Assembly (NCBI GenBank): GCA_016934015.1
Contig: JAFGTQ010000067.1
Location: 1-44,060, forward strand
Origin: Acholeplasmataceae bacterium
GTDB lineage: Bacteria; Bacillota_I; Bacilli_A; Acholeplasmatales; Acholeplasmataceae
Direction of reading: 5' to 3'
Length of the DNA stretch: 44,060 nt
Shown: positions 33,356 through 41,828 of the stretch, one piece after another
Numbering within the stretch: position 1 is the first letter of the stretch
How the letters are laid out: the number at the start of each line of letters is the position of its first letter
Made by a program: the position numbers and the translations under genes
Notes under the pieces: generated by a model
Databases searched by the model: none
Seen by the model: the letters and a program-made list of their open reading frames with translations, nothing else
Told to the model about the DNA's origin: nothing

Positions 33356-34327
33356 ATGAATGTATTCATTAAAGCTTCTGAAAACGATTTAGAATATGTC
33401 AAACTCAATATGACGCATCTTGAGATGACGGATGAAAAAAGAAAGAGTTTATTACATTATGCCGTCATAGGTTCTGCGATGGATGTTCTAAATTATTTAT
33501 TTGATCAAGACATTAATGTGAATTTAACTGATCAGCATGGAGAAAGTGCCCTTTTTGATTGTGCAAGAAAAGGGAAACTAGAACTTGCTAAAAAACTGAT
33601 TTCACGATTTGCATCAGTAAATATTGAGAATCGTCAAGGCGAGTTACCCATTCATTTAGCCGCACAAAAGGGTAATCTAGACATGATTAGATTGCTGATA
33701 GAATCAGGTTCCTTTTTAAATAAAAAGACGATGGAAGATAAGCTTCCAGTCCATTATGCAATTCAAGGTGGACAAACAGAAATCGTACCCTACCTTTTAA
33801 CACAAAGTAAACAATCGTGGTTTATGAAAGATACATATGGTAACACATTATTACACCATGCAGCAAAAACATCGAATGTTCGATTGATTGAGATGTTACT
33901 TAATCAAAATCTCGATCCTAATGCTTTAAATTCACAATTTGAAACACCAATCTTTAATGCCATACGTTTTGGATCGATTGAAACGATTCGCTTGTTACTG
34001 GCAAGCGAAGCCTATTTGGATATTAAAAATCGGAGATTTGAATCACCACTAGATACGGCAATGATTTTTGGTAAACAAGAAATAGCAGAATATTTAAATG
34101 AATATATGCAAACACCAAAATATGAACGCCTTATTCAAAGACAAGCACTCGCAGTGGCAGTTTTAAATCGTGATCATGTTGTTTTAAGAAAACTGATTGA
34201 AAAAGATATACCAATGAAAAAAGACCGTTTACAAAAAACAGCCTTAGATTATGCGAAAGAATATAATTTATCTCTTTGTGTTGGATTGCTTAGAGATGTA
34301 CATATTAATGGAAATGATGGTTCTTAA
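33356..34327 (+). CDS. Ankyrin-repeat protein
   Basis: The 323-residue protein is built almost wholly of ankyrin repeats, about eight units of roughly 33 residues. Examples are GESALFDCARKGKLELAKKL, GELPIHLAAQKGNLDMIRLL, GNTLLHHAAKTSNVRLIEML and ETPIFNAIRFGSIETIRLLL. It has no signal peptide or membrane helix, so it is likely a cytosolic protein-binding scaffold. Its partner is unknown. It is a single-gene unit with its own promoter and tandem terminators, located right after the HU gene. Base composition matches the neighbours, so recent transfer is not evident. Confidence 0.9.
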   Translation: MNVFIKASENDLEYVKLNMTHLEMTDEKRKSLLHYAVIGSAMDVLNYLFDQDINVNLTDQHGESALFDCARKGKLELAKKLISRFASVNIENRQGELPIHLAAQKGNLDMIRLLIESGSFLNKKTMEDKLPVHYAIQGGQTEIVPYLLTQSKQSWFMKDTYGNTLLHHAAKTSNVRLIEMLLNQNLDPNALNSQFETPIFNAIRFGSIETIRLLLASEAYLDIKNRRFESPLDTAMIFGKQEIAEYLNEYMQTPKYERLIQRQALAVAVLNRDHVVLRKLIEKDIPMKKDRLQKTALDYAKEYNLSLCVGLLRDVHINGNDGS

Positions 34328-34360: not shown

Positions 34361-34395
34361 AGGGACATGAGATTTTATCTTATGTCCCTATTTTT
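34361..34395 (+). terminator. Strong terminator of the ankyrin gene
   Basis: A 13-bp stem, AGGGACATGAGAT with ATCTTATGTCCCT (one G-U pair), around TTT, then ATTTTT. It ends against the stop codon of the convergent CPBP gene. Confidence 0.88.
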
Positions 34396-35548
34396 ATAGA
34401 ATAAATAAAATACCCAATACAGCAATCAAATTGGACAAGATATGAACAACCATTGGGGCCAATACATTTTTATCATTTTTAATGTATATGAGTCCAAATA
34501 CGATACCCATAACAAAATATGCAGATCCATTGACAAGGGCAGATGCGATGGATGGTTCTGAGACAAGATGAATGGTACCAAAGATGACGCTTGAGACGAT
34601 TAATCCAGTTATGTTTTTTTGAAATATTCCAAATATGGCTTTTCTAAAAATAAGTTCTTCGATGATTGGGCCAAATAAGATTGCTGAAATCATCATCAGA
34701 ATCGTTCCATCAGATTGTAGCGCAGCGATAATGGTTAGTTGATTGAGTGATTCACTAATGGGAACATTTAAGGCATCACTTAAGAAATTTGAAATAAAAT
34801 TGGATAATATATTACCTAGAATCAAATAAAGATATCCGACAGCAATGATAATGAACCATTCTTTTTTTCTTGATTTAAACGATTCAAAATCATCGGACAA
34901 ATCTTTCTTTAATAAAAATAAAATAGGAGGAAGCATCGCTAAATAAATCAAGAAATTAGCTAAAGCACTTGAAAAATCAGATAAGGTTGTGATTGGTCCA
35001 TCAATTGGTTCATAGGGTGCTTCAAAAAAGGAGGGAAGTAATTGATCTTCACCAGCGTATATATGAATCATTGGACCACTTTCTGTCCAAGATGATAATG
35101 TTTGGTTTTCTGAGAATATGTTTAAAAGATTAGCTTCATTAAGTACGAGAATGCCATCAATTTCTATGATGAGTAGATCTTGATAGTGAGTGTTTGTCGC
35201 ACTAACGAAAACCGTATAACCTTGATAGTCACCTATTTGAATGATACGTTCTTCATAAGTTGGTAGAAGTAAATCAATACTTTCTTGTTCGAGGATTGCA
35301 ATACCTGAACTATCTGCTGAAACAGCACGAATCAATAAATCATTTTCAGAATAGGTTTCTCTAAAAGAGTCTATGCCCATAAAGATTGTAAAAATAACGG
35401 AACCTAATACAAACATCAGTAGAACATAGACAAATAAAGCCGTAAAATAATTAGCGCTTCGATTCGGCTCTGGTTGGTTCTTTTTTTTATGTTGATGTGC
35501 TTCTTTTAATAGATCTTCAAATTCTAAGATTTCGTTTTCATTTGCCAT
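34394..35548 (-). CDS. CPBP-family intramembrane glutamic protease
   Basis: The 384-residue protein has the full CPBP (CaaX protease/bacteriocin-processing) signature: E297-E298-x3-R302 in PIIEELIFRKA, F323-x3-H327 in FGTIHL, and H369-x3-N373 in HILSN. A cytoplasmic charged tail (1-33) precedes the first helix (about 35-60). An outer domain of about 130 residues (about 61-190) and at least six further helices follow. The outer domain is unusual for the family. ATG 35548 is chosen because TATAAT and GGTGA lie just upstream. The longer reading to 35680 runs through the promoter. No bacteriocin-like gene is adjacent. The substrate is unknown. Confidence 0.87.
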   Translation of the reverse strand: MANENEILEFEDLLKEAHQHKKKNQPEPNRSANYFTALFVYVLLMFVLGSVIFTIFMGIDSFRETYSENDLLIRAVSADSSGIAILEQESIDLLLPTYEERIIQIGDYQGYTVFVSATNTHYQDLLIIEIDGILVLNEANLLNIFSENQTLSSWTESGPMIHIYAGEDQLLPSFFEAPYEPIDGPITTLSDFSSALANFLIYLAMLPPILFLLKKDLSDDFESFKSRKKEWFIIIAVGYLYLILGNILSNFISNFLSDALNVPISESLNQLTIIAALQSDGTILMMISAILFGPIIEELIFRKAIFGIFQKNITGLIVSSVIFGTIHLVSEPSIASALVNGSAYFVMGIVFGLIYIKNDKNVLAPMVVHILSNLIAVLGILFIL

Positions 35549-35563
35549 AATTTCACCGCTTAT

Positions 35564-35569
35564 ATTATA
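35564..35569 (-). promoter_or_regulatory. -10 box of the CPBP protease gene
   Basis: TATAAT on the minus strand in the context TTAAGGTATAATATA, the same AAGGTATAAT core as at greA and rny. Confidence 0.6.
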
Positions 35570-35609
35570 CCTTAAAAGTATTTGAATCATACATTTAAGG
35601 CAAAATATG

Positions 35610-35618
35610 TGATAAGAT
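35610..35618 (+). promoter_or_regulatory. Possible extended -10 of rdgB
   Basis: TGATAAGAT lies 26 bases before ATG 35645, divergent from the CPBP promoter. The match is moderate. Confidence 0.4.
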
Positions 35619-35644
35619 AAGAGAGAAAGAAATGACTGGGTGAG

Positions 35645-36238
35645 ATGATGGTAGAAATTCTTGTGGCAAGTCAAAATCAAAAAAAATGTCGTGAATTAAA
35701 GATGATGCTTGAAAATGATCATATCCGTGTCATATCCTTAAAAGATTTGAATGATTCGGATGATGTGATTGAAGACGGTTCATCATTTTTTGAAAATGCA
35801 CTCATTAAAGCTAAATATTTTGCTAAAAAACATCATAAAATAACGATTTCTGATGATTCTGGTTTAGAAGTTTATGCACTAGATAATCAGCCAGGTATTT
35901 ATTCTGCGCGATATTCTGGGTTAGGTGACGATGCAAACAATCAAAAGTTATTAAAAGAGATGGAAAATAAAACAGATCGAAGAGCAAGATTTGTAAGCTC
36001 GATTGTCATCTATTTACCGAATGACCAGTACTATCATTTTCAAGGAACCATTGAAGGTGAAATTTTATATGAACTCAGAGGCCATCAAGGTTTTGGTTAT
36101 GATCCGTTGTTTTATGTGAAAGCATATAATCAAACATTTGCAGAGCTTGATATAATAATTAAAAATCAGATTTCGCATCGTGCCAATGCCTTATTTCAGT
36201 TAAAGGAGTCACTCGATGAAATTATTAATTACAAGTGA
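35645..36238 (+). CDS. rdgB: XTP/dITP diphosphatase (RdgB/HAM1)
   Basis: The 197-residue house-cleaning enzyme hydrolyses non-canonical purine triphosphates. It has EILVASQNQKKCRELK near the N-terminus, ITISDDSGLEVYAL, PGIYSARYSG, and GFGYDPLF with the C-terminal ISHRANAL. ATG at 35645 or 35648 follows GGGTGAG. It overlaps the YfcE-like gene by 23 bases. In Bacillus rdgB (ysnA) and ysnB are likewise adjacent. Confidence 0.95.
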   Translation: MMVEILVASQNQKKCRELKMMLENDHIRVISLKDLNDSDDVIEDGSSFFENALIKAKYFAKKHHKITISDDSGLEVYALDNQPGIYSARYSGLGDDANNQKLLKEMENKTDRRARFVSSIVIYLPNDQYYHFQGTIEGEILYELRGHQGFGYDPLFYVKAYNQTFAELDIIIKNQISHRANALFQLKESLDEIINYK

Positions 36239-36656
36239 TGTTCATGGAAGACTTGAGGATTTAAAGGATGTCATCAAAAAACATGTGGATTGTGATCTGC
36301 ACTTGAACGCAGGAGATATGTCTTTGGATCCAAAGTATTATGAACCTTTAAATATTGTTACAGTCAAAGGAAACAATGATTTTGGCGTTGATTTACCATT
36401 CGAAAGAATTATTGAAGTAAAAGGATATAAAATTTTATTGACTCACGGACATAAAGAATCTGTTAAATTCGGGCTAACTCGATTAAAATTAAAAGCGAAA
36501 CTTCTTGGTGTCAATCTTGTGATATTTGGTCATACGCATCAAAAATATATGGAAATGGACCAAGGAATTTTGTTTATTAATCCTGGCGCATTATCTGGCG
36601 GTCATAGAACATACGCCATCTATGAAAATCAAACCGTCACGTTTTTGGGACTCTAA
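36216..36656 (+). CDS. YfcE/YsnB-like metallophosphodiesterase
   Basis: This 146-residue calcineurin-like phosphoesterase has SDVHGRLEDL, NAGDMS, VKGNNDFG, LLTHGHKES and IFGHTHQKYM, the five metal-binding motifs of the YfcE/MJ0936 class. The substrate in this class is uncertain; activity is seen on artificial phosphodiesters. GGAG lies upstream of ATG 36216, inside rdgB, so the two are coupled. The stop is followed by the kinase ATG with only one base between them. Confidence 0.92.
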   Translation: MKLLITSDVHGRLEDLKDVIKKHVDCDLHLNAGDMSLDPKYYEPLNIVTVKGNNDFGVDLPFERIIEVKGYKILLTHGHKESVKFGLTRLKLKAKLLGVNLVIFGHTHQKYMEMDQGILFINPGALSGGHRTYAIYENQTVTFLGL

Positions 36657-36657
36657 T

Positions 36658-37524
36658 ATGGAACACGAAAAACTTATCAAAAAACAGGCAGCTAAAGCAT
36701 TTAAAGTGAGTGAAGATGATGTCATTGTCAAACATCGTTTTTTAGGTGGTATGAGCCATTTGACATATCACATTCAAATCCATGGTGTTGATTATACTTA
36801 TCGAGTAATTGGGAAAGATGGGAATCTTTTTGTTGATCGAAAGATTGAATATCAAAATCTTAAAACGATTGAACCTCTAGGGTTATGTAATGAAACGGTT
36901 TATTTTGATGTTGTGAGCGGTGAGAAAGCAGCGAAATATGTTGAGGGTACACCTCTTTCTCAGTTGGATTATAAACCTTATCTACCTCACATTGTGAAGG
37001 TTTTAAAGAAATTACATCATACCTCACTTAAGCCAGCCTCAGATTATGGTTTAATTGATCGATTAAATTTATATGAAACATATACAAACAATTTATCTGA
37101 TCAATATTTGGCATTAAAAAAAGCATGGATTGAAATTTATGAAAATGAACGTCAACATCAACCTAAAGTTTTTTGTCATAACGATGCTCAAAGATCGAAT
37201 TTTGTCATCGCACCAGATAAAATTTATTTACTTGATTGGGAGTATGCGGGTTACAATGAGTTTTATTATGACATTGCAAGTTTTGGAAACGTCCAATTTG
37301 AAGATGCTTTAGAACTTTTAGATGTATATCTTGAGAGAGAAGCAACCAAGGAAGAAAAAAATTTGGTTCGTTTTTATCGAATGTTTCAAGCACTTCAATG
37401 GCACCAAGTCGCATTAAGAAAAGAAATTATTGGTTTATCGCCTGTTTTACATTTTGACTTTAAAATGCTTGCTGAAAAGTACTTAAACTTAGCTCAAAAG
37501 CTTTATGATGATATAAAGGGATGA
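36658..37524 (+). CDS. Choline/ethanolamine kinase-like phosphotransferase
   Basis: The 288-residue aminoglycoside-phosphotransferase-fold kinase has the catalytic loop H174-N-D176-AQRSNF and the metal Asp D193 in LLDWEYAGY, as in choline kinases and LicA. The nucleotide-loop-like region GGMSHLTYHI lies near residue 30. A longer in-frame reading starts at 36526 inside the YfcE gene, but the ATG at 36658, right after that stop, is preferred. No licB or licC homologue is adjacent. A GDPD gene 5.8 kb downstream could release choline or ethanolamine. The substrate is inferred. Confidence 0.82.
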   Translation: MEHEKLIKKQAAKAFKVSEDDVIVKHRFLGGMSHLTYHIQIHGVDYTYRVIGKDGNLFVDRKIEYQNLKTIEPLGLCNETVYFDVVSGEKAAKYVEGTPLSQLDYKPYLPHIVKVLKKLHHTSLKPASDYGLIDRLNLYETYTNNLSDQYLALKKAWIEIYENERQHQPKVFCHNDAQRSNFVIAPDKIYLLDWEYAGYNEFYYDIASFGNVQFEDALELLDVYLEREATKEEKNLVRFYRMFQALQWHQVALRKEIIGLSPVLHFDFKMLAEKYLNLAQKLYDDIKG

Positions 37525-37528
37525 GATT

Positions 37529-40500
37529 ATGCGATTAAGTGACATTCTACATTTACCAAAGGATGCACACAGTTTACCGATTATCAAATCTTATTTAGAA
37601 CAACCGCTTACTCATAAGGAGTATCAAGCGGCTTTTGGGCTTTATTTTGAAATTGCTAATTTATTAGAACTTTATCATGTTGTATTTGAAGAAGGTATTG
37701 GATTGATTGATGAATTTGATGCTCAATCTTCAACTGAATATTTACCAAAACTATACCATGAGATTTTTTATGCCTGCTTAAAGCTTAAACGATACGAAGA
37801 TGCTAAATCGTTACTAGAAAAATATCGACATGCACTACCGGTGATGAAACAACATTTAGCGCTTCAAGATGAAATTCAGTATAAAAAAGCACTTCAATTA
37901 CCAATTACTGATGAATTAAATCGATTATTAAATGATCAAGTGACAGATGATGTGAAAGTGAATGCACTTTATGAACTCTACACAATTTATCTCAATGATC
38001 ATCAAGATGACTTAGCACTTAACACATTGGATGAATTGGATAAATTTGACCATGTATATAATTTGGATAAGGAAAGACTTGAGATTTATTTACGATTAGA
38101 TCGACAAGAAGATGTTTTAAAAAATGCACTTGATATGTTGAAAAATAAGGTCAATACAATTGATGCTGTTTATGCGTTAATCAGTGTGTATTTTAAACGT
38201 GGAGAATACCATAAAGCATCGTCAATTGAGGCGGAATATGAAGACCTAATCGATCAACAAGACGATAATTTTAAGTTAAAAATATTTCCTTTAATTATTG
38301 ATTTATATAAAAAGATTGATAGTAAATTTTCAATTGACCTATATCAAAAAAAGTTAAAAGTCGTACAAAAAAGAGAAGAAAAAAAACCTAAAACTGAAAA
38401 AGTAGTCATTGAAGAAAATGAGAAAGAAAAAGATGTAGTTGTGATTGAAAAAATTACGCCTAAAACAAAAAGATCACATCCATCCATTCTTCAATTTGAA
38501 TTAGCATATGATTTCATGCATTATGCTCATGAAATTGATCAACAACTGATTTTAAGAGATTATTTAAGAGCATTTTTTATGCATGTTGAACCACATATCA
38601 ATTTTAAAGAGTGTTTCATTTACTTAAATGAGGGTTCGCCAAATTTCTTTCACTACAAAAAAGAAAGACTATATGATAAAGATTTACCCGCACACCGTAT
38701 TGAACATTCCATCTTAAGTCATATGATTGAAACAAACAATGAAATTATCGAATCAACACAGACATTAAAGTGGCAAAAAAACATTATTACAGATCAAGAT
38801 TATAATGAAGATGTAGGATTCATTGATGCATTTCCATTATCGTGTGGTGGAGCATTTGTTGTTTATTTTGAAAAAGATTTAGGTGATCCTGGCCAATTTT
38901 ATGATATTTTAAAGCTCATAAGTGCAATCATTGATGGCCATTTAATAGAAGAAAAAAGGCTTGAAGAAGCGAAAAGAGATCGCAGATATTATCAAAGAGC
39001 TTTTAATAGTCCAATCTTTTATTATCGAGAGCTTACACAAACAAAATCAACTTATAATGATCAAGCAATGGAGTTATTCCAAGTTGAGAAACATCATCAT
39101 ATTGAATTATTTTTAAAAGATGTAAGTTATGAACATATTCATTTATACAAAGAAGCATTATCTAACCTCTTTAGTCATGTTGGTGAAACAAAATCAATCA
39201 GTTATAAATATCAAGAAAAATATATTTATGAAAAGATGTATAGCTTGAAAAAGGGAGATGAAGTCATTATTATGAGTACATTTAATGATCAAACAGAAAA
39301 CATTAAGGCGACTCAAGACTTAATCAATAAAGCAACACATGATCAAACTTCAGGATTAGCAAATATGAATGCTTTGGAATCAGATTTGAATGAATTGATT
39401 CAAGATAAGGCGAGCTTTATTTTAATCGAACTTGAACATGATTTGAAACAAATTTATGGCAATGAAAAGATGATGCAATATTTCCGTGAATTTGGACAAC
39501 AAGCCAAGAAATTTTTTGATGATGGTAAGACTTATCGAACGGATTATCGCCAAATATTAGTTGTGATTCCAAATAATGACATAAGAACAGTAACAAAAGT
39601 TATTAAAGATTATTTGAAGTTTATAGAAAATTATCAGTCAACAGTTTTAAAGTATGAAAAATTCCAAGTAAATATGGGCGTTTTAAGATATCCAGTAGTA
39701 ACGACTGAAAAAGATCTTCAAAAAATTATGAGATTTTTAAATATTGCGCTTGATAAAGCGAAAAGAGATCGTGAAGAGAAATTTGTTTTCTTTGTTTTTA
39801 GTGATTATGAAGATGAACTATTTGAACAACAAGTTATTGACCAGCTAAATCTTGCGATTGAAACAAAATCATTAGGGCTCATGTTTAATCAATTAACCGA
39901 TATTAAGAAAAATCGTGTTTGGCAATATGAGAGTGAATTAATCATTCCTAATTTATCAGTCGATGGAAAATATTTGATTGCCATTGCGAAAAAACGTAAT
40001 CGTTTAGTTGACCTTGAGCGTTATCATATTGAAAGAGTTTGTCAATTCTTAAGTGAACTTGAAAAAGAAACAGAAAGATTGATCAAAGTGACCATTCCAA
40101 TTTCAAAAGAAACTTTCTTAGATCCAACATTTAATCCATATATTTTAGGCATTTTTAAAACATATGGTATTCCTGTCGAATTTGTGCGTTTAAAATGTGA
40201 TATGGAATTAAGACCAAATCATTATGCACCACAAATTCAAGAATTGATTGATCACGCGATTGCACTGGATACTACATCACTTGAAATGGCATTAAATTAC
40301 CCATTTCATGCTCTACATCTCGATATTAAAAAAGATTCGGATAAATGGCAAAATTATGTCGTAAAAGTGAAAGAACTTTTAGAAACATATCATATGGCTT
40401 TGGTCATTCGAAATGTCAAATCTAGAGAGCAAAAAGAAGCACTTGATCATTTAGGCATTCAATTTATTGAAGGATCAATCTATAAAGAAATTAATGATCG

Positions 40501-40534
40501 AGCATTGATTGAAAAAATCAAGGAGAGTCTATGA
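37529..40534 (+). CDS. TPR-GAF-PAS-GGDEF-EAL-like signalling protein, both output domains degenerate
   Basis: The 1001-residue protein starts with a TPR-like helical array (about 1-280) and a Lys/Glu linker (about 285-320). A GAF-like region (about 325-480) and a PAS-like region (about 495-595) follow. It then has a GGDEF-like domain whose entry motif ATHDQTSGLANMNAL (from A602) is clear but whose catalytic loop reads R670-T-DYRQI (672-676) in place of GGDEF. The C-terminal EAL-like domain (about 765-1001) has E801-S-E instead of EAL. It lacks the DDFG pair (ALDTTS) and ends HLDIKK where lKID is usual. It is soluble, with no membrane helix. Neither synthesis nor hydrolysis of cyclic di-GMP is expected; a binding or scaffold role is more likely. 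It is coupled to the HEPN-like gene by a 4-base overlap. Confidence 0.82.
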   Translation: MRLSDILHLPKDAHSLPIIKSYLEQPLTHKEYQAAFGLYFEIANLLELYHVVFEEGIGLIDEFDAQSSTEYLPKLYHEIFYACLKLKRYEDAKSLLEKYRHALPVMKQHLALQDEIQYKKALQLPITDELNRLLNDQVTDDVKVNALYELYTIYLNDHQDDLALNTLDELDKFDHVYNLDKERLEIYLRLDRQEDVLKNALDMLKNKVNTIDAVYALISVYFKRGEYHKASSIEAEYEDLIDQQDDNFKLKIFPLIIDLYKKIDSKFSIDLYQKKLKVVQKREEKKPKTEKVVIEENEKEKDVVVIEKITPKTKRSHPSILQFELAYDFMHYAHEIDQQLILRDYLRAFFMHVEPHINFKECFIYLNEGSPNFFHYKKERLYDKDLPAHRIEHSILSHMIETNNEIIESTQTLKWQKNIITDQDYNEDVGFIDAFPLSCGGAFVVYFEKDLGDPGQFYDILKLISAIIDGHLIEEKRLEEAKRDRRYYQRAFNSPIFYYRELTQTKSTYNDQAMELFQVEKHHHIELFLKDVSYEHIHLYKEALSNLFSHVGETKSISYKYQEKYIYEKMYSLKKGDEVIIMSTFNDQTENIKATQDLINKATHDQTSGLANMNALESDLNELIQDKASFILIELEHDLKQIYGNEKMMQYFREFGQQAKKFFDDGKTYRTDYRQILVVIPNNDIRTVTKVIKDYLKFIENYQSTVLKYEKFQVNMGVLRYPVVTTEKDLQKIMRFLNIALDKAKRDREEKFVFFVFSDYEDELFEQQVIDQLNLAIETKSLGLMFNQLTDIKKNRVWQYESELIIPNLSVDGKYLIAIAKKRNRLVDLERYHIERVCQFLSELEKETERLIKVTIPISKETFLDPTFNPYILGIFKTYGIPVEFVRLKCDMELRPNHYAPQIQELIDHAIALDTTSLEMALNYPFHALHLDIKKDSDKWQNYVVKVKELLETYHMALVIRNVKSREQKEALDHLGIQFIEGSIYKEINDRALIEKIKESL

Positions 40535-41595
40535 GTTTAGAAAGTCTACGCGCTTATGTCAAGGAAATCGAAAAAGATGAAAGAAATAGTCATGGTTATC
40601 GTGCCCATGCATCTTTTTTGATGCTTGAACACGTCGATTTAATGGTTGAACGATATTTAAAGGAAAAGCAAATTGAACGTGGAGCGATATTACTTGATGT
40701 GTTCGGACTTTTACAAGGGTTATTTGTTGCAATTGATGCACTTTATGATTTATCCATCGGACTCACACGTTATAAATACCCAATTAACATTAACCAAAAT
40801 AAAATTCTTCATGAATTAAAATACATTAGAAACGATATTGTCGGGCACCCGACGCATCGCACTTATCCAAATGGTGGTATGGGTTTTTCAATTTTAGATA
40901 CCAGTATTTTATCCAAAGAAAAAATGACTTATAAAACATATATTTATGAAAAGAATACACTAAAAATTGAGACTAAAGATGTTCTATTTGAGCCATTAAT
41001 TGCTCAATATAAAAAAGAAAAATTAGTTGTTTTAAAAGATATTGAACGTTATATTAAACACGATCAAGCGACGACTGATATTCCAGAACAACTTGCGATA
41101 TTCCATGAAACACTCAATGAAGAGTCTTTATATCAAATTATAGAGGAATTTAAAAAGACGTATGAATTTGATGAATCATCATCACATCGATTTTTATGGC
41201 GATCAAATTTGTTGTTACAATTATTGTCATGGCAAGAAGAAGATGATGATTTGAAAGAAATTTTACTTTATATGATGAAATTTCAGGCAGCGAAGCTCTA
41301 CGATATGGCACTTGACATGGAAGATCGGAAGCAGAAAGCACTTTATGCACCCATACCAAAGCTTTTACATGGATTTTATAAATTTGTAAGAAAACATGAA
41401 AAGATTATCTATCCGCTCATGAAGAATTTAAACGATGCGGGACATCCACTTCATCAATCTGATTTAGAGGGAATTTTATCGATGAATCCGAATGATGATG
41501 CTTATAAATTATTACAATTTTTTAAAGCACAAACAAATCCAGATCGCAGATTTTTAATTGGGTCAATTTTAAGAGCCTATCGACCTAAATCTTAG
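40531..41595 (+). CDS. HEPN-like protein partnered with the GGDEF/EAL-like gene
   Basis: I do not recognise a named family. The 354-residue protein is almost all helical. The N-terminal domain (about 1-165) contains ELKYIRNDIVGHP, with R100-N101-x4-H106. This is the Rx4-6H pattern of HEPN ribonuclease domains, within a helix and followed by Pro as often seen. The C-terminal half (about 175-354) is a second helical domain with acidic stretches and no recognised motif. It is soluble. AAGGAG precedes the ATG, and the start overlaps the 1001-residue protein's stop by ATGA, so the two probably form a complex. RNase activity is possible but unproven. Confidence 0.65.
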   Translation: MSLESLRAYVKEIEKDERNSHGYRAHASFLMLEHVDLMVERYLKEKQIERGAILLDVFGLLQGLFVAIDALYDLSIGLTRYKYPININQNKILHELKYIRNDIVGHPTHRTYPNGGMGFSILDTSILSKEKMTYKTYIYEKNTLKIETKDVLFEPLIAQYKKEKLVVLKDIERYIKHDQATTDIPEQLAIFHETLNEESLYQIIEEFKKTYEFDESSSHRFLWRSNLLLQLLSWQEEDDDLKEILLYMMKFQAAKLYDMALDMEDRKQKALYAPIPKLLHGFYKFVRKHEKIIYPLMKNLNDAGHPLHQSDLEGILSMNPNDDAYKLLQFFKAQTNPDRRFLIGSILRAYRPKS

Positions 41596-41630: not shown

Positions 41631-41828
41631 ATGGCATGGAGTAACGAAACATATCTTATTGGTGAAAAAGTTAAAGTTGAAAATGAAAAAGGATTTGGTG
41701 TTATAACACGTATTGATTTAGAACGTGGACTAGTTTACGTATTATTTAAAAGAATGCGTGAAGAAGCTTACCCATATCCTGAAGCTATCGAACAGGGAAT
41801 TTTAAAACCCGAGGTTCAGAAGAAATAA
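41631..41828 (+). CDS. Small SH3-barrel-like protein of unknown function
   Basis: The 65-residue protein is not recognised. The sequence GEKVKVENEKGFGVITRIDL followed by GLVYVLFKRMREE suggests a small beta barrel of the SH3/KOW kind, often found in RNA- or polymerase-binding proteins. ATG 41631 follows GAGGTG with good spacing. It has its own extended -10 promoter and a terminator built on its stop codon, which supports a real, separately expressed gene. Confidence 0.75.
   Translation: MAWSNETYLIGEKVKVENEKGFGVITRIDLERGLVYVLFKRMREEAYPYPEAIEQGILKPEVQKK

Follow-up and report, generated by a model that had tools for sequence, protein, structure and literature searches.

A protein of 1001 residues with tandem GGDEF and EAL domains, both of whose enzyme sites are dead, was identified in the window (the whole stretch of DNA analysed here, 44,060 nt of a contig from an Acholeplasmataceae bacterium). 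Together with its orthologues, here named family A, it is read with moderate confidence as a cytosolic pseudoenzyme regulator which acts by protein contact independently of cyclic di-GMP (c-di-GMP), and whose likely output is the product of the following gene, P0002.

The open reading frame starts with ATG and is immediately preceded by AAAGGGATGAG, which resembles a ribosome-binding site. No transmembrane segments were predicted in its product. Based on Pfam, a GGDEF domain lies at residues 602-749 (E 1.2e-5) and an EAL domain at residues 772-985 (E 5.1e-9), both scores only slightly exceeding the curated cut-offs. Comparison of this sequence alone (P0001) with the PDB gave a designed protein as the sole match, so that an orthologue profile was needed; a profile of 43 orthologues matched the GGDEF-EAL part of DosP over residues 591-984 at 1.4e-13. 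The AlphaFold2 model (mean pLDDT 87; pTM 0.38, so that the packing of the domains is uncertain) keeps the GGDEF and EAL folds, preceded by helical repeats and by GAF-like and PAS-like domains. Its top matches in the PDB by Foldseek were DosP (5.5e-21) and PA0861, a PAS-GGDEF-EAL protein, followed by MorA and LapD. DosP and PA0861 are thus the best matches in sequence and structure, and membership of the GGDEF and EAL fold superfamilies is indicated by Pfam, the DosP profile, AlphaFold2 and Foldseek alike. The initial annotation had described these folds as still visible and the domain order as TPR-GAF-PAS-GGDEF-EAL, and both descriptions stand, the GAF and PAS assignments resting mainly on model topology. 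TPR repeats were assigned from the helical-repeat model and from weak sequence matches, consensus TPR chains being matched at about residues 146-286 by the A2 profile. The GAF-like domain gave no Pfam GAF match and contains the near-invariant sequence YKKERLYDK at residues 376-384; PAS was matched in divergent homologues with E-values up to 4.8e-6. Coordinates of all features are collected in Table 1.

Table 1. Features of the family A locus (positions in the window) and location of family B
Feature	Position	Strand	Evidence
RdgB/Ham1 XTP/dITP diphosphatase	35645..36238	+	TIGR00042 1e-54; 47 loci
YfcE-like phosphodiesterase	36216..36656	+	TIGR00040 8e-25; 37 loci
Choline-kinase/APH-like kinase, about 288 aa from internal ATG	36658..37524	+	Pfam Choline_kinase 4e-15; 37 loci
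Family A (pseudo-GGDEF-EAL protein)	37529..40534	+	ORF, translation, Pfam, AlphaFold2, Foldseek, orthologues
Helical-repeat (TPR-like) region, residues 1-285	37529..38383	+	AlphaFold2 helix pairs; consensus TPR chains
Disordered charged linker, about residues 286-317	38384..38479	+	pLDDT <50 at 286-316
GAF-like domain, about residues 318-492	38480..39004	+	AlphaFold2 topology; conservation
PAS-like domain, about residues 493-588	39005..39292	+	AlphaFold2 topology; Pfam PAS_3 in divergent homologue
Degenerate GGDEF domain, about residues 589-755	39293..39793	+	Pfam E 1e-5; motif census; AlphaFold2
Degenerate EAL domain, residues 757-1001	39797..40531	+	Pfam E 5e-9; DosP alignment; motif census; AlphaFold2
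P0002, operon partner, 354 aa, no Pfam family	40531..41595	+	Sequence; adjacency in 34 loci of the order
Conserved 65-aa small protein, no assigned function	41631..41828	+	26 loci; alignment
Family B	G000:C35:41643-43211; L157-L166; L209:1641-3224	- (G000)	Sequence

In place of the GGDEF hairpin the protein reads DYRQI (residues 672-676, positions 39542-39556) and in place of the EAL site ESELI (residues 801-805, positions 39929-39943), in agreement with the initial annotation, which had cited DYRQI and ESE (801-803). Its observation that the DDFG metal pair is missing was confirmed by profile alignment to DosP, in which the DDFGTGFSG loop is shorter by about seven residues. In the same alignment E801 corresponds to the E of EAL, the positions of the catalytic N, E, K, E and Q are replaced, the R of ExLxR has become a hydrophobic residue, and no intact GGDEF or EAL motif was recovered. 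An active diguanylate cyclase is not indicated, GG[DE]EF being found in none of the 58 orthologues of the order, nor is an active EAL phosphodiesterase, since E801 alone remains and the DDFG loop is deleted. Judged from these orthologues, the degeneration is ancestral.

The same alignments bear on a possible function as a receptor of the LapD/FimX type, in which the dead EAL (or GGDEF) domain would bind c-di-GMP made by active cyclases and relay the signal. LapD and FimX share the tandem fold with family A and were among its Foldseek and PDB-profile matches; E801 is retained in 31 of the 58 orthologues, and the genome to which the window belongs encodes about 17 intact GGDEF proteins and no PilZ protein, so that known protein receptors are missing from it. 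LapD and FimX, however, keep ExLxR, through which they bind c-di-GMP and which has been described as deciding whether a degenerate EAL domain binds it (PMC10333796), whereas this motif occurs in 0/58 orthologues. The I-site motif RxxD, characteristic of receptors of the PelD/PopA type, is likewise found in 0/58, and loop 6 is deleted. Moreover, a c-di-GMP-I riboswitch already serves as an effector in the same genome, and family A persists where cyclases were not detected. A receptor of this type is therefore considered unlikely. The initial annotation had proposed binding or protein contact rather than catalysis; the non-catalytic role holds and contact is the better half of the proposal, while c-di-GMP binding is weakened by the lack of ExLxR and RxxD and by a gene that outlasts the diguanylate cyclases. 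Family A could still bind a novel ligand, or c-di-GMP via an uncharacterised site.

Orthologues were found in 56 of the 61 genomes searched, including that of the window, which argues against a chance occurrence. The genomes compared include those of Acholeplasma laidlawii, A. granularum, A. oculi, Haploplasma modicum and Peloplasma aerotolerans. Purifying selection on the pseudo-GGDEF and pseudo-EAL domains is strong (omega 0.03-0.05, pairwise within the genus), as had been supposed from the single sequence, and the column entropy of these domains is smaller than that of the sensory half. The length of the orthologues is constant at about 1000 residues. An invariant N683-D684-x-R686 (NDxR) directly follows the old GGDEF hairpin, and R720, P722, Y643-G644, Y800 and, within the GAF-like domain, R380-L381-Y382-x-K384 are invariant or nearly so. 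These residues sit away from the old active sites and, taken with the purifying selection, indicate that the protein is kept for a role other than catalysis. It is very improbable that family A is a slowly decaying relic with no present function. Loss of the catalytic sites would suit a relic, as would a gene split into two frames in one genome (G050) and the absence of orthologues from three genomes which, judging by their size and gene loss, appear to be phytoplasma-like, but the substitution pattern contradicts decay, and the constant length, the invariant residues and the wide distribution stand against it as well. In G050 (locus L063), an otherwise complete genome, the adjoining P0002 homologue is also broken.

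Synonymous divergence between the genes of the window (G000) and of G002 (L076) was 0.33-0.39 over the TPR/GAF/PAS part and 1.2-1.7 over GGDEF/EAL; these values mark the family A gene as a mosaic, probably produced by recombination. Divergent homologues of about 1000 residues, with a still weaker GGDEF/EAL signal, occur in another bacterial family of the class (f19). Because the class-wide profile search scored only two candidates per genome, a count of zero in it is a lower bound; family A in G042, G049 and G053 escaped it and was recovered by the search of the 61 genomes. No plasmid-borne relatives were found.

The architecture had been called unexpected in a reduced genome, with no obvious enzyme partner in the window. 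This surprise was unfounded, as proteins of c-di-GMP metabolism are abundant in the same genome: Pfam gave 20 GGDEF and 3 EAL matches, of which about 17 of the former carry an intact GG[DE]EF by motif reading, and the two EAL matches other than family A retain DDFG. A c-di-GMP-I riboswitch is present in this and in 33 other genomes, while PilZ proteins were found in 0/61. For A. laidlawii, 14 GGDEF/EAL proteins were noted in 2008 (PMC2408644). At least 12 genomes retain family A without any detected intact diguanylate cyclase (G007, G008, G011, G020, G021, G024, G033, G039, G042, G049, G053 and G056), a call which covers GGDEF (PF00990) and EAL domains in draft genomes that may hide a cyclase. 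Six of these 12 are at least 90% complete. In each of the 12 the PF00990 matches, where there are any, belong to family A or to family B, a degenerate family described below, and the EAL matches are family A except for one marginal fragment (G039). Conversely, G013 and G044, both incomplete, encode GGDEF proteins and no detectable family A. The presence of family A is thus untied to c-di-GMP synthesis. One of the 12, G008 (99% complete), has a c-di-GMP-I riboswitch that scores higher than the gathering cut-off (L263:3157-3232; G008:C96:12656-12731), downstream of which is an ORF of 111 residues with no assigned function.

The distribution of cyclases also bears on control of active diguanylate cyclases through GGDEF heterodimers, in the manner of degenerate GGDEF proteins of E. 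coli. Strong heteromeric contacts are made by such domains in E. coli (PMC5635695), and cyclases are plentiful in the genome of the window. Retention of family A in the genomes lacking a detected cyclase speaks against this mode of action, which we regard as quite unlikely, although pairing with the co-retained pseudo-GGDEF family B could still occur there.

Family B was identified as an order-wide degenerate GGDEF family of about 525 residues with three transmembrane segments and two PAS domains, in which R[ILM][ST]GxxF replaces the RxGGDEF hairpin. It adjoins an IspD/IspF-like gene in the loci read. Like family A it is degenerate, conserved across the order and retained in cyclase-free genomes; unlike family A it has no EAL domain, is membrane-anchored and is encoded at another locus. 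The weak GGDEF matches in the cyclase-free genomes were also considered as GdpP and rejected, the DHH motif occurring in none of them; with their two PAS domains they make up a pseudo-GGDEF family of their own. The five genomes without family A also lack a full-length family B (Fisher p 9e-6, relatedness uncorrected), a co-occurrence which is a hint only, since three of the five are phytoplasma-like.

The gene order rdgB - yfcE - kinase - family A - P0002 - 65-aa protein is fixed across the order (locus counts in Table 1). The kinase gene, listed as a TTG ORF beginning at 36526, ends 4 nt upstream of family A, and P0002 begins, with an ATG, within the last 4 nt of family A. A few genes upstream, an ankyrin-repeat protein of 323 residues is encoded at 33356-34327 of the window (Pfam Ank_2 1e-58; 29 loci), and a CPBP/Rce1-like intramembrane protease lies beside the operon on the opposite strand (34394-35680; 42 loci). 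Scans for promoters and terminators gave results no better than chance, Rfam elements were not found in the window, and PADLOC found no defence family.

P0002 adjoins family A in three bacterial families (f1, f5 and f19), directly following the family A homologue in five f19 loci (E 1e-59 to 1e-71), and is encoded unlinked to it in f3. Its detected homologues are confined to families which also have family A; it was not detectable in G040, G342 and part of f19 despite the presence of family A. The P0002 model is well predicted (pLDDT 90.6) and found no match by Pfam, PDB profile or Foldseek, HEPN domains included. An invariant RND[IV]VGHP at residues 100-107 resembles HEPN Rx4-6H in motif, with R100 near the end of the helix 91-105, and HEPN identity is accordingly a lead only, drawn from this motif.

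The neighbouring genes raise the question of another ligand. A different nucleotide or metabolite, e.g. GTP, ATP or (p)ppGpp, could be bound in the remodelled pocket of the GGDEF or EAL domain, which would couple the nucleotide-hygiene operon or P0002 to the state of the nucleotides. RdgB and YfcE are encoded in the neighbourhood of family A, and degenerate GGDEF domains that sense GTP or act as ATPases have been described (PMC10333796). In f19 (L215-L228) genes of about 732 and 145 residues precede the family A homologue, with the lengths of relA and dtd, lengths alone having been compared. Against this, no ligand residue pattern was identified in family A and the genes beside it may be housekeeping genes placed there by chance, so that this alternative is judged improbable.

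Regulation by contact therefore remains our preferred reading, and builds directly on the dead sites, the retained fold, the purifying selection, the order-wide fixed neighbourhood, the gene coupling to P0002 and the retention without cyclases. The GAF-like and PAS-like domains would probably sense the state of the cell, the TPR-like repeats would bind partners, and the GGDEF and EAL folds would form a dimerising contact scaffold from which the signal probably exits via the translationally coupled P0002. Family B may be a second, membrane-bound partner. The operon coupling of family A and P0002 counts against contact in so far as it can reflect co-expression only. An unlikely extension is that A and B form a nucleotide-independent module derived from former c-di-GMP enzymes, which senses the state of the cell and switches P0002, possibly an RNA-cleaving HEPN-like effector.

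The E. coli protein CsrD is a degenerate GGDEF-EAL protein which promotes decay of CsrB/C by RNase E, and is the nearest known analogue. Both carry tandem dead GGDEF-EAL domains kept for a non-catalytic role, and CsrD acts without binding c-di-GMP (PMC10333796). CsrD, however, is bound to the membrane by a GAPES4-HAMP part, whereas family A, from Acholeplasmatales, has no transmembrane segment, a different N-terminal architecture (TPR/GAF/PAS-like) and a coupled partner gene. Other relatives differ in their motifs: DosP keeps EAL and DDFG, of which family A has neither, and LapD and FimX, with their ExLxR, differ from a family that persists without cyclases. By these motifs family A fits neither the receptors nor the two enzymes, dead GGDEF-EAL proteins as such being an already known kind. 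No description of it in Acholeplasma was found in a literature search of mostly non-subscription papers.

The usual interpretation of a dead GGDEF-EAL protein is that it receives c-di-GMP or restrains the c-di-GMP network. The order, however, retains family A though the c-di-GMP network has been lost in several lineages, which suggests that the job of the pseudoenzyme is separable from the nucleotide. The role of a lone GGDEF-EAL scaffold becomes testable in the cultivable Acholeplasma laidlawii and Haploplasma modicum, and P0002, whose link to family A extends beyond a single family of the class, is a clear candidate for its output.
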